Source: Candidatus Rariloculus versatilis
GTDB lineage: Bacteria > Pseudomonadota > Gammaproteobacteria > Steroidobacterales > Rariloculaceae
Length of the DNA stretch: 49,964 bases
Direction of reading: 5' to 3'
Assembly: GCA_028278665.1 (NCBI GenBank)
Contig: JAQAJI010000006.1
Location: 1-49,964 of the forward strand
Below the pieces are notes generated by a model, which was not told the origin of the DNA, ran no database searches, and was given only the letters and a program-made list of their open reading frames with translations. Positions within the stretch are counted from its first letter, which is position 1. Each line of letters starts with the position of its first letter. Shown in pieces: positions 28,549-47,985 of the stretch. The position numbers and the translations under genes were made by a program.

Positions 28549-30612
28549 ATGTCGCTGCGCGCCCAGCTTCTCGGCTTCGGTCTGCTGACACTCGTGCTGC
28601 CGTGGGCCGGGATGCGCTTCGTTGAGGAGATGGAGGGAGCGCTGCGCCGCGGTCTTGAGGCCTCGCTACTCGCGAGCGCGGGAACTGTCGCTGCCGCGCT
28701 TGACGACGAGCCCGCGCTGATTCGTCCCGTGGGCGAACGTGCGAACGAGCTGGCTGGCGTTGCCGCGACAATCTACGCCGAGCCGCTGCGCCGCGAACTC
28801 ACGGTCGACGGTTTTGACAACGATTGGGATCCCGGCAACGCGACGGTGCGATCGCTGCCGGGCGGCCACGCGTACCGGACCGGCGTTTACCGACGCTACG
28901 CTTACCTCTTTGTCACCGTCGCAGACCCGGACATCGTCCAGCAGGGTTCCCCCGGACAGACCCCGTACGGCGACCGCCTGCTGCTCATGCTCGAACCCGA
29001 AGCCGGTGCATCGAATCCGCTGCTGCTCATGACCCGCGCGCCGGGCCGGTTTCGGGCGCAACGGACGATGCCGCCCGCGTTCGCACCGAGCGGCAGTTTC
29101 GAGGACCGTGTACTGAGCGCGTGGCGGACCACGGCCGATGGCTACAGCGTCGAGGCCCGGGTACCGCTCGACCTGATTGGCGCGTCGCTTGGATTTGCCG
29201 TTATCGATGTCGATCCGGCAGGCGCATCGAACTACTCCGTCGAACTGAACTCGACCTGGGAAGGCGGGCAGGCCAGGGCCTCGCACTTCATCCACCAGCT
29301 TCCGCAATTGCAGGAGTTCGTGAACCAGTTCAACCGCGCGGGAGACCGTTTCCGCGTCGTGAACCGCGACGGCTGGGTGCTTTCGGATGCCGGCAGTGTC
29401 GAGTCCGGCGCCCTGGCGGCCGATACAGGCGCAACGGCGCTTGCCGAGCGCATGTTCCGCTCGCTGTTACGCCGCGACGATCCTGACTACGAAACGCTCG
29501 AGGAACCGTTCGGGCGCCTGGGTGACGAGGCGCTCAGGACTGCACTGGACGGGGAACCCGCGATGGCGTGGTTCCGCAGGGGGCCCGACGACAGCGCCAT
29601 AGTCGCGGCCGCCGCACCGATTCGCGGCCCGGACGGCGTGCTCGGCGCCGTGCTGCTCGAGCAGGCCAGCGATCCGATCCTGACGCTCACAAACCAGGCA
29701 TTGATGCGGCTCATGACGTTCACGCTGCTTGCGAGCGTGCTCGCCGCCGCCGGGCTCCTCGGCTACGCGACATTTCTCTCGCTCAGAGTCAGAAGGCTCG
29801 CACACGCCGCGGAAACGGCGCTCGGACCGAAGGGCGAGATTCAGGTTGACGTGCCCGGCCGGCGTGCGAGCGACGAACTTGGCGATCTCGCGCGCAGCTT
29901 TGCGGACCTGCTCCGACGTCTTCGGGAGCACACGGACTATCTGCGCACGCTTGCAAGCAAGCTCTCGCACGAACTTCGAACGCCGCTGGCGGTCGTCTCG
30001 ACCTCGCTCGACAACCTCGAGCAGGAGGCTGACAGGGACGCGGCGCAGGTCTACCTGCAGCGCTTGCGCGGCGGCACCGCCCGTCTGGATTCGATACTTG
30101 CGGCAATGAGCGAAGCCACACGGATGGAGCACGCGATCGAGGAGACGACGCCGGAGGTATTCGATCTCGCTGCGGTCGTCGAGGTCTGCGGCAAGGCGTA
30201 TGGCGACGTCTACGCAGATCGGAGTTTCGCCTGCGATCTGCGGACGGACGGGCCGGCCACGGTCAGCGGTTCGGGGGACCTGGTCGCGCAGCTCATGGAC
30301 AAGCTCGTCGACAATGCGGTCGGATTCAGCCCGGCCGGCAGCCGCATCGGGATCGATCTGCTCGGCGCGCCCTTGGAGTTTGTCCTGTCCGTCAGCAATA
30401 CGGGTTCGGAGCTGCCCGAATCGATGCGCGAGCAACTGTTCGATTCACTGGTGTCGATTCGCAAGCGCGGCGACGACCGGCCGCACCTCGGACTCGGGCT
30501 TTACATCGTCGCGCTGATCGCGAAGTTCCACGGCGGGCGCGTGGGGGCGGACAATCTGCCCGATGGAGACGGCGTCGTCTTTAGCGTCTACTTCCCGCGC
30601 CACGCGGAGTAA
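28549..30612 (+). CDS. Sensor histidine kinase, PdsS-like (dedicated sortase system type)
   Basis: 687 residues. A first membrane helix (about 5-22), a long periplasmic region with a carbohydrate-binding-like segment (DGFDNDWDPGNATVRSLPGG, then GYSVEARVPLDLIGASLGFA), a second helix (about 385-408), HAMP, HisKA with His near 474 in SKLSHELRTPLAVVST, and an ATPase domain with DKLVDNAVGFSP and HLGLGLYIVALI. The combination of HK with the CBM9-like periplasmic segment resembles the histidine kinase of the proteobacterial dedicated sortase system (TIGR03785). No sortase or response regulator is adjacent; a PdsR-like regulator lies at 37987-38685. Confidence 0.75.
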   Translation: MSLRAQLLGFGLLTLVLPWAGMRFVEEMEGALRRGLEASLLASAGTVAAALDDEPALIRPVGERANELAGVAATIYAEPLRRELTVDGFDNDWDPGNATVRSLPGGHAYRTGVYRRYAYLFVTVADPDIVQQGSPGQTPYGDRLLLMLEPEAGASNPLLLMTRAPGRFRAQRTMPPAFAPSGSFEDRVLSAWRTTADGYSVEARVPLDLIGASLGFAVIDVDPAGASNYSVELNSTWEGGQARASHFIHQLPQLQEFVNQFNRAGDRFRVVNRDGWVLSDAGSVESGALAADTGATALAERMFRSLLRRDDPDYETLEEPFGRLGDEALRTALDGEPAMAWFRRGPDDSAIVAAAAPIRGPDGVLGAVLLEQASDPILTLTNQALMRLMTFTLLASVLAAAGLLGYATFLSLRVRRLAHAAETALGPKGEIQVDVPGRRASDELGDLARSFADLLRRLREHTDYLRTLASKLSHELRTPLAVVSTSLDNLEQEADRDAAQVYLQRLRGGTARLDSILAAMSEATRMEHAIEETTPEVFDLAAVVEVCGKAYGDVYADRSFACDLRTDGPATVSGSGDLVAQLMDKLVDNAVGFSPAGSRIGIDLLGAPLEFVLSVSNTGSELPESMREQLFDSLVSIRKRGDDRPHLGLGLYIVALIAKFHGGRVGADNLPDGDGVVFSVYFPRHAE

Positions 30613-39425: not shown

Positions 39426-40310
39426 CTAGGTCACCGCCGCAATGCCGCCCGTGTCGGGCGGCATGAGGGCCTTGAGCTTGCGCATCGCGTTCGCTTCGAT
39501 TTGACGGATCCGCTCGGCCGAAACCTCGTACTCGGCCGCCAGCTCGTGCAGCGTGGACTTCGACTCGCCGAGCCAGCGGCGCGCGACGATGTCGCGGCTG
39601 CGGTCATCGAGCTGATCGAGCGCCTGATGGAGATGGGCGTGCGTGGAGTCGGTCCAGTCCTGCTTCTCGACGGCGCTCGCGGGATCGTCGTCGAGGCTCG
39701 GCAGATAGGCGGACGGCGAATACTCGTCGTCTTCGCCCGGGCCCGGGTCGTAGCTCATGTCGCGGCCGCTGAGCCGGCTTTCCATCTCGGTGACTTCGCG
39801 TGGGCTGACTCCGAGATCCCTGGCGATGGCCTCGGTCTCTTCCTGGTTCAACCAGCCAAGGTGCGACTTGGACTTGCGCAGATTGAAGAACAGTTTCCGT
39901 TGGGCTTTCGTCGTCGCGACCTTGACGAGCCGCCAGTTGCGCAGGACGAATTCGTGAATCTCGGCGCGAATCCAGTGCACCGCGAAGGAGACCAGACGGA
40001 TGCCGACCTCGGGATCGAAACGCTTGACGGCCTTCATGAGGCCGACGTTGCCTTCCTGGATCAGGTCGCCGAGCTGCAGGCCGTAACCGGAATAGCCGCG
40101 TGCAATGTGCACGACGAAGCGCAGATGCGCGAGCACGAGGGCGCGGGCGGCATCGAGGTCGCCATGCTGCTGCAGGCGCGTTGCAAGCTCGCGTTCCTCT
40201 TCGGCACTGAGCACCGGAATGCTGTTGACGGCCTGGGTGTACTGATCCAGGCTGCCGAGCGGGCCGCTCAGCACGAGATCTTCGGGTCGTCGAACCAGCG
40301 CAGCAGTCAC
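39426..40310 (-). CDS. rpoH: RNA polymerase sigma-32 (heat-shock sigma factor)
   Basis: 294 residues from GTG 40310. Region 2 includes [20 protein letters not shown] and [20 protein letters not shown]; the RpoH box QRKLFFNLR is present just after, distinguishing it from other group 2-3 sigma factors. Region 4 has the helix-turn-helix [20 protein letters not shown]. It directs RNA polymerase to heat-shock promoters. The gene is the last of the ftsY-ftsE-ftsX-rpoH block, with 143 bases of spacer that hold a CIRCE element, so it likely has its own HrcA-regulated promoter. Confidence 0.96.
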
Positions 40311-40352
40311 GGCGGTCTTGCCTCCAGTGTGAATTATCGCGGGCAGCGAATG

Positions 40353-40379
40353 TTAGCACTCACCGCGTTAGAGTGCTAA
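40353..40379. promoter_or_regulatory. CIRCE operator (HrcA site) upstream of rpoH
   Basis: TTAGCACTC-ACCGCGTTA-GAGTGCTAA is an exact match to the CIRCE consensus (TTAGCACTC-N9-GAGTGCTAA), and even the flanking bases G/C are paired. It lies 43-69 bases upstream of the rpoH GTG. CIRCE is the binding site of the heat-shock repressor HrcA, normally found before groESL or dnaK operons. Its placement would put the activating sigma factor under the control of a repressor. Confidence 0.93.
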
Positions 40380-40453
40380 CAACCTGATTGGTTCCTGGTC
40401 GGGCATGTGCGCAAAGGCGGATTGGAGAGTTCGTACGAACTCCTCTTGCGTGG

Positions 40454-41374
40454 TCAGGTGGGTTCGATCGCACGCAGATGGCGTGCGGCGGCGATCCAGG
40501 CGCCAGCCCAGCCGAGCGCGGCTCCACCGCCGACGAGAATGACGGTGTCGCGCCAGCCGAGTCCCATGAGCGTGTAGACGCTTGCGTAGAGTTCGGCGAG
40601 TGCTCTTGCGGGCGCCTCGAGCAACGCGAGTGCGGCTGCGACGAGCAGTGCCGCGATGAGAGCGCCGGCCAGACCGTAGCAGAAGCCGAGATAGAGGAAG
40701 GGCCTGCGAATGAAGCCGTCGCTGCCGCCGACGAGCTTCATGACCTCGATCTCGGTGCTGCGATTGTTGATCTCGAGCCTGATCGTGTTGCCGATCACGA
40801 GGACGACCGCGAGCGCGACCAGCGCCGACACGATGTCGACGGTGCGTTCGACGAGCTCGAGCATGGCCCTGAGTCGTGCGACCCACTCCGTGTCGAGCTG
40901 TACCTGCGCCGTTTCCTCCAGAGCGTCGAGCGATTCGGCCAGCGCTTGCATCTCGTCAACGGCGGTTTGCTCGGGCCTTACGACGAGCGTGTGCGGCAGC
41001 GGGTTGTCCTCGAGCGCGTCGAGCGCTTCGCCGAAGCCCGATTGCGCCCTGAAGTCCTCCAGCGCATCCGCGCGGCTGATGAATTCAACCTGATCGACAT
41101 CGGCTCGGGCATCGATTTCGCTCGCGAGCTCGCGAGCGCGCTCCTCGGTCACGGCGTCGTCGAGATACACGGTGAAGTCCGCGGCGCCCTCCCAGGAACC
41201 GCTGAGCGCACCGACATTGGTCAGGAACACTCGCATTCCCGCCGGCAGCGCGAGGGCGATCGCGATCACGAGCACGGTCAGCAGGCTGCCGAGCGGGTGG
41301 CGCAGAAGCCTGCCGAGAGCGCCGCTGAGGTTCTGCGCGTGCAGGCGGAAGTAGCGTGTCGTGGCCTCAATCAC
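40454..41374 (-). CDS. ftsX: Cell-division protein FtsX
   Basis: 306 residues from GTG 41374, which overlaps the ftsE stop by eight bases; the track start 35 codons upstream lies inside ftsE. First membrane helix (LLTVLVIAIALALPAGM), a large periplasmic loop (about 60-160) that in the family contacts EnvC/peptidoglycan hydrolase regulators, then three further helices (including VDIVSALVALAVVLVIGNTI and the final VILVGGGAALGWAGAWIAAAR). With FtsE it forms the complex that controls amidases at the septum. Confidence 0.94.
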   Translation of the reverse strand: MIEATTRYFRLHAQNLSGALGRLLRHPLGSLLTVLVIAIALALPAGMRVFLTNVGALSGSWEGAADFTVYLDDAVTEERARELASEIDARADVDQVEFISRADALEDFRAQSGFGEALDALEDNPLPHTLVVRPEQTAVDEMQALAESLDALEETAQVQLDTEWVARLRAMLELVERTVDIVSALVALAVVLVIGNTIRLEINNRSTEIEVMKLVGGSDGFIRRPFLYLGFCYGLAGALIAALLVAAALALLEAPARALAELYASVYTLMGLGWRDTVILVGGGAALGWAGAWIAAARHLRAIEPT

Positions 41375-42110
41375 GGTATCGGGACCCGTGGCGGTCGGGG
41401 GAGGTCGAGTGAGGCGTTGTCGGCCGATGGGGTTGCGAACCACCCGGCGCAAGGCCGTCCGCGGCGATCTCTCCGGCAACGAGCCTGATCGTTCGGTGCC
41501 CGAGGTGTTCGACGAGCTTCAGGTCGTGCGTCGCGATCAACAGCGTCACGCCGACCTCGTTGAAGCGCTCGAGCAGGCGCATGATTTCGAGCGAGAGTTC
41601 CGGGTCGAGGTTGCCGGTCGGCTCGTCGGCGATGACGACGTCGGGGCGGCTTGCGACCGCCCGCGCGATGCCGACGCGCTGCTGCTCGCCCGTGGACAGC
41701 GTGATCGGTGCGTCCCGCTCGCGGCCGCGCAGTCCCACCTGGTCGAGCGCGGCGCGCACGCGCCGGCCCGTCTCGCGCGGACCGAAGCCCGCGATCACGA
41801 GCGGCAGGGCGACGTTGTCGAAAACCGTGCGGTCGTGAAGCAGCTTGTGATCCTGAAAGACGACCCCGATGCGGCGGCGGAAGCCGGGAACGCTCCGGCG
41901 CGAAACCCCGGCGGTGTTGCGGCGGTTTACGATCACGGCGCCGCGAGTCGGCCGCTCGATCAGGGCGATGAGCTTCAGAAGCGTGCTCTTGCCCGCGCCC
42001 GACGGCCCGGTCAGGAACGCCATTTCCCCGCGTTCGAGAGCGAAGCTGATGCCGCCAAGCGCCTCTCGCCCGTTCGGGTATCGCTTGTAGACGTCCTCGA
42101 AGCGAATCAC
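41367..42110 (-). CDS. ftsE: Cell-division ATP-binding protein FtsE
   Basis: 247 residues from GTG 42110, sharing a GTGA overlap with the ftsY stop. ABC ATPase motifs: Walker A GPSGAGKSTLLKLI, Q-loop VVFQDHKLLHDRTVFDNVALPL, signature LSTGEQQRVGIARAV, Walker B PDVVIADEPTGNLD and H-loop in IATHD. The last 35 residues are longer than the usual FtsE and form a Pro/Arg-rich tail. It powers FtsX to activate periplasmic amidases. Confidence 0.95.
   Translation of the reverse strand: MIRFEDVYKRYPNGREALGGISFALERGEMAFLTGPSGAGKSTLLKLIALIERPTRGAVIVNRRNTAGVSRRSVPGFRRRIGVVFQDHKLLHDRTVFDNVALPLVIAGFGPRETGRRVRAALDQVGLRGRERDAPITLSTGEQQRVGIARAVASRPDVVIADEPTGNLDPELSLEIMRLLERFNEVGVTLLIATHDLKLVEHLGHRTIRLVAGEIAADGLAPGGSQPHRPTTPHSTSPDRHGSRYRD

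Positions 42111-45519: not shown

Positions 45520-47985
<2,466 letters not shown>

Follow-up and report, generated by a model that had tools for sequence, protein, structure and literature searches.

A CIRCE operator overlapping putative sigma-E-type and sigma-70-type promoter elements upstream of rpoH in Candidatus Rariloculus versatilis and other Gammaproteobacteria

Analysis of a 49,964-nucleotide stretch of the Candidatus Rariloculus versatilis genome (the window) indicated that the CIRCE element at 40353-40379 is probably a genuine HrcA operator that coincides with the core promoters of rpoH, the gene for sigma-32, and HrcA repression of rpoH through this element is well supported by sequence comparison. 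The element TTAGCACTCACCGCGTTAGAGTGCTAA is an exact TTAGCACTC-N9-GAGTGCTAA that matches CIRCE at 18/18 positions, and it is the only match in the window at ≤3 mismatches, where 0.01 is expected from shuffled sequence. The first-pass annotation had placed an exact CIRCE 43-69 bases upstream of the sigma-32 gene, and both the element and the distance were confirmed, the latter because the rpoH GTG start lies behind a GGAGG. The features of the locus are as follows.

39426-40310, minus strand: rpoH, sigma-32; GTG start, 294 aa; TIGR02392 409 bits (cut-off 323), NF005143 425 bits
40321-40325, minus strand: Shine-Dalgarno GGAGG of rpoH, from the sequence
40350-40358, minus strand: putative sigma-70-type extended -10 TGCTAACAT; CIRCE positions 22-30, the right arm plus CAT
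40353-40379, minus strand: CIRCE operator, putative HrcA site; TTAGCACTC-TAACGCGGT-GAGTGCTAA read toward rpoH; 18/18, conserved in 30/30 loci
40368-40372, minus strand: putative sigma-E -10 TCTAA; CIRCE positions 8-12, the final TC of the left arm plus the first TAA of the spacer
40389-40395, minus strand: putative sigma-E -35 GGAACCA (consensus GGAACTT); CIRCE offset -16 to -10, 16 bp before the -10
40454-41377, minus strand: ftsX, upstream neighbour of rpoH; TIGR00439 344 bits
41367-42110, minus strand: ftsE, beyond ftsX; TIGR02673 276 bits
42107-43087, minus strand: ftsY, beyond ftsE; TIGR00064 308 bits

The gene order ftsY-ftsE-ftsX-rpoH is carried on one strand, and rpoH of E. coli likewise follows ftsX. 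Neither a canonical sigma-70 promoter, in a simple -35/-10 consensus scan, nor a terminator was called in the ftsX-rpoH interval. A perfect 16-bp palindrome, GAGTTCGTACGAACTC, lies at 40427-40442 between the ftsX stop and the putative rpoH sigma-E -35; it is unique in the window, missing in the close relative G002, and not a canonical terminator as it has no T-run.

The own assembly (2.9 Mb, 92% complete) contains the hrcA gene that the first-pass annotation had predicted, as an intact frame without stops (PF01628, 212 bits) that precedes grpE. A genome-wide scan at ≤3 mismatches, which the same annotation had proposed, recovered one CIRCE besides that of rpoH, just upstream of groES, and none at hrcA itself. 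The groESL copy (L002 1501-1527; G000:C32:13153-13179) has 1 mismatch and directly follows CTTGAAA-N13-CCCTATC, a good, near-consensus match to a sigma-32 promoter that ends immediately before it. Sigma-32 control of hrcA or of rpoH was also considered and set aside, as no convincing promoter match was found at either gene. The genome further encodes rpoE (TIGR02939, 300 bits, cut-off 236) and, directly after it on contig C68, the anti-sigma gene rseA (PF03872, 31.5 bits, cut-off 24); rpoE is itself preceded by CGAACTT-N17-TCTAC.

The relatives, which the first-pass annotation had also suggested checking, showed CIRCE with 0-1 mismatches before rpoH in 30/30 loci from the own genome and members of the same genus, family and order. 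The class sample comprised 149 genomes, almost every one of a different gammaproteobacterial family, and 139 rpoH loci were examined in it; 99 carried CIRCE at ≤3 mismatches and the remaining 40 all had at least 6. This distribution was clearly bimodal (0-3 or at least 6 mismatches), and scrambled-pattern controls never gave fewer than 5. Named genomes with the element included Woeseiaceae, Steroidobacteraceae, Competibacteraceae, Chromatiaceae, Haliea, Silanimonas and Pleionea, with 2 mismatches in Pseudoxanthomonas; among the named genomes no rpoH CIRCE was found in Pseudomonas, Halomonas, Kushneria, Methylophaga, Nitrococcus or Salinisphaera.

Presence of the element followed that of the repressor, with CIRCE at 94/103 rpoH loci of hrcA-bearing genomes vs 5/36 of hrcA-less genomes (Fisher p=8e-18). 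Among 27 path-disjoint pairs differing in hrcA, CIRCE was concordant in 20 and opposite in 0, a count taken from a rough, weakly supported tree of partial RpoH sequences and made irrespective of branch support. An independence test confined to supported (starred) branches of this tree was abandoned, as only 2 pairs fell on such branches. The exceptions, namely nine loci of hrcA-bearing genomes without CIRCE and five of hrcA-less genomes with it (within loci L115-L252), may reflect gaps in the assemblies, a second copy of rpoH or a recent loss. Among 60 rpoH upstream regions from Pseudomonadota outside the class, only 3 had CIRCE, despite the presence of hrcA in most of the genomes concerned. 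These three CIRCE-like sites (L358, L369, L345; 1-3 mismatches) come from one family (f169) of small genomes.

A CIRCE before rpoH is the usual, and apparently an old, state in hrcA-bearing gammaproteobacteria. The reading that HrcA represses rpoH, put forward in the first-pass annotation, was strengthened by the presence of hrcA, the groESL CIRCE, the conservation of the site and its tracking of hrcA. Its premise of an exceptional link did not hold, since the arrangement occurs in most hrcA-bearing gammaproteobacteria sampled and was also reported for Geobacter sulfurreducens (Rodionov et al. 2004, PMC545781).

The anatomy of the site was examined by anchoring the 99 class-wide rpoH sites on CIRCE, with 29 groES CIRCEs as the comparison set, and conservation at rpoH was found to extend into the flanks and to some positions of the N9 spacer. 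The consensus at CIRCE positions -16 to -10 is GGAACTT, and GGAACTT-like sequences (≥5/7) occurred near -16 in 67/99 sites vs 7.7 in shuffles (maximum 16), starting at exactly -16 in 54/99. Spacer positions 10-12 prefer T-A/C-A at rpoH sites (T10 in 68/99, A12 in 75/99) and not at groES sites, and A12 was present in 61/67 sites with the -35 vs 14/32 without it (p=8e-7), so that 61/99 sites carry both elements. These class-wide GGAACTT and TCTAA marks fit the canonical sigma-E motifs GGAACTT and TCAAA (PMC4890791) and may represent a sigma-E-type promoter whose -10 is shared with the operator. The window sequence GGAACCA-N16-TCTAA fits the pattern GGAACTT-N15-17-TCnnA used as the promoter criterion, its -35 scoring 5/7 against GGAACTT. 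GGAACC is also present in the nearest relative G002, and GGAAC is kept in most order relatives; the genus relative G001 has TCAACCC in place of the -35. As the -35 scores 5/7 in the window and is lacking in G001, some members may be under weak sigma-E control or none at all.

On the side facing rpoH, N-A-T after the CIRCE right arm yields an extended -10, TGCTAANAT, at the class-wide rpoH sites. T30 was found in 88/99 rpoH sites vs 1/29 groES sites, and A-rich positions (CIRCE positions 37-38) follow 7-8 bases beyond the extended -10, for which the criterion was TGn-TAnnnT with a start about 7 nt downstream. The window has TGCTAACAT at this place, and the simple -35/-10 scan calls no promoter there. 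None of the 29 groES CIRCEs has GGAACTT at -16, and most of them have CCCTATTA just before CIRCE; the marks being absent from groES CIRCEs, they belong to rpoH and not to CIRCE in general. The overlap of the element with a putative sigma-E-type promoter and a putative extended -10 had been missed by the first-pass annotation. In the left arm, A3->G is seen at 29/99 rpoH sites and could suggest selection for a -35 (TTGGCA); this was rejected, as groES CIRCEs share the change (6/29).

In the mechanism that we infer, active HrcA would cover both the sigma-E-type and the sigma-70-type promoter and keep rpoH transcription low. Heat or misfolded protein would inactivate HrcA, by analogy with HrcA and GroEL of other bacteria, after which vegetative polymerase, joined by sigma-E polymerase under envelope stress, would transcribe rpoH. 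HrcA would also repress groESL, and as groESL would stand under HrcA and a sigma-32-like promoter, HrcA, rpoH and groESL would form a coherent feed-forward loop. GroEL supports HrcA in other bacteria, and the same support here would close the loop. Occlusion by HrcA of both types of rpoH initiation, coupled to such a loop with groESL, is considered likely, and HrcA binding, promoter activity, heat induction and feedback at rpoH would all be expected to follow this scheme.

Other explanations of the site differ in how much of this scheme they retain. HrcA might repress rpoH through CIRCE at a solely vegetative promoter, the local GGAACC/TCTAA being a decayed relic or a coincidence. The imperfect local -35, its lack in G001 and the third or so of class-wide sites that fall below 5/7 for GGAACTT would all agree with this, but the position-locked GGAACTT in 67/99 sites with its co-occurring -10, the GGAAC of most order relatives and the rpoE and rseA genes of the genome speak against it, and we regard it as possible yet doubtful. 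We consider it unlikely that CIRCE is real but rpoH is transcribed mainly by readthrough from ftsYEX, with HrcA at most a roadblock and sigma-32 under the translational and proteolytic control known from E. coli. In favour of readthrough, rpoH follows ftsYEX in the same direction and no terminator was called ahead of it, and strong pairing is predicted for the rpoH start region here (accessibility 0.18, as against 0.32 in E. coli); against it stands the conservation over the class of the promoter marks at CIRCE. Leader pairing did not differ between CIRCE-bearing and CIRCE-less rpoH (p=0.57) and thus argues neither for nor against readthrough; the same comparison of start-region accessibility lent no support to loss of an mRNA thermosensor in CIRCE-bearing lineages, and it speaks neither for nor against an E. 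coli-type thermosensor, in which downstream coding RNA sequesters the start region. Inverted repeats can also be terminators or hairpins, but that this palindrome is a chance CIRCE match or serves such another role is hardly credible, with about 0.01 matches expected per window even at 3 mismatches, no terminator called and a palindrome that tracks hrcA.

The E. coli rpoH upstream region has TGAACTT-N16-TCTGA, and its P3 is the founding sigma-E-dependent promoter (PMC8103513). In the class sample, TGCTA[AG]NAT was kept in 9/40 CIRCE-less rpoH upstream regions vs 0.2 expected, and GGAACTT occurs without the palindrome in Nitrococcus mobilis, together with AATGCTAAAAT, and in several Pseudomonas, together with AGTGCTAGACT. 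Enrichment of GGAACTT in the CIRCE-less set was modest (12/40 vs 7.5 expected), and retention of the sigma-E part therefore depends on the lineage. Some relatives without HrcA appear to retain promoter pieces as the palindrome erodes, and the order of events would be loss of the operator with the promoter kept. On balance, an HrcA palindrome built from a sigma-E -10 and a sigma-70 extended -10 plausibly represents an old gammaproteobacterial sigma-32 switch, with E. coli P3 and the sigma-E-like site of Pseudomonas as remnants after hrcA loss. Such a switch would make any rise of sigma-32 through envelope stress or housekeeping polymerase conditional on HrcA being off.

The closest known systems are the HrcA/CIRCE circuits of groESL and hrcA-grpE-dnaK-dnaJ, which use the same operator and repressor family and of which the own groESL CIRCE is an example. 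At the rpoH site, by contrast, it is the gene of the heat-shock sigma factor that is targeted, and CIRCE lies on putative promoter elements; at groES it stands just downstream of the -10 (CCCTATTA-CIRCE). E. coli rpoH P3 has the elements and spacing of the CIRCE-interleaved promoter described here, but its rpoH has no CIRCE, P3 is free of this operator and no hrcA match was found for E. coli in the control-genome set. The alphaproteobacterial arrangement, exemplified by Agrobacterium tumefaciens with HrcA on groESL and RpoH regulated separately (as cited in PMC11764788), likewise combines HrcA and RpoH but differs in that CIRCE is rare at rpoH in Pseudomonadota outside the class, at the 3/60 given above. 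Geobacter sulfurreducens has CIRCE before rpoH at -51 (Rodionov et al. 2004, PMC545781), the same operator at the same gene and nearly the same place as in the window; the available text of that report concerns one site in one species and does not discuss promoter overlap, and the species belongs to a phylum outside our class sample.

In the literature searched, no description was found of a class-wide linkage of CIRCE to rpoH or of its overlap with a sigma-E promoter, which argues only weakly for novelty. The beta-, gamma- and epsilon-proteobacteria had reportedly been surveyed before by Permina and Gelfand, whose list may already include some gamma- or betaproteobacterial rpoH CIRCEs. The new part is the anatomy, that is, conserved promoter-like marks placed on CIRCE at rpoH and not at groES. 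Textbook control of sigma-32, through translation, proteolysis and the sigma-E-dependent P3, derives from E. coli, which has no HrcA. If the proposed scheme is correct, most gammaproteobacteria that keep HrcA would set this repressor atop rpoH transcription, the HrcA, sigma-E and sigma-32 stress circuits would meet at one 60-bp site, and E. coli would represent a lineage in which the repressor was lost and the promoter kept. The model can be tested directly in any cultivable hrcA-bearing gammaproteobacterium.

Two further genes of the window, both on the plus strand, were recorded in passing. In the 459-aa frame at 46606-47985, the match to phosphopantetheine adenylyltransferase (CoaD) is confined to residues 305-457; the first 300 residues of the frame have no Pfam or NCBIfam family match, and the true start may therefore be internal or the protein a fusion. 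The gene at 28549-30612 encodes a histidine kinase that resembles the kinase of the proteobacterial dedicated sortase system (TIGR03785, 522 bits, under the cut-off of 612).
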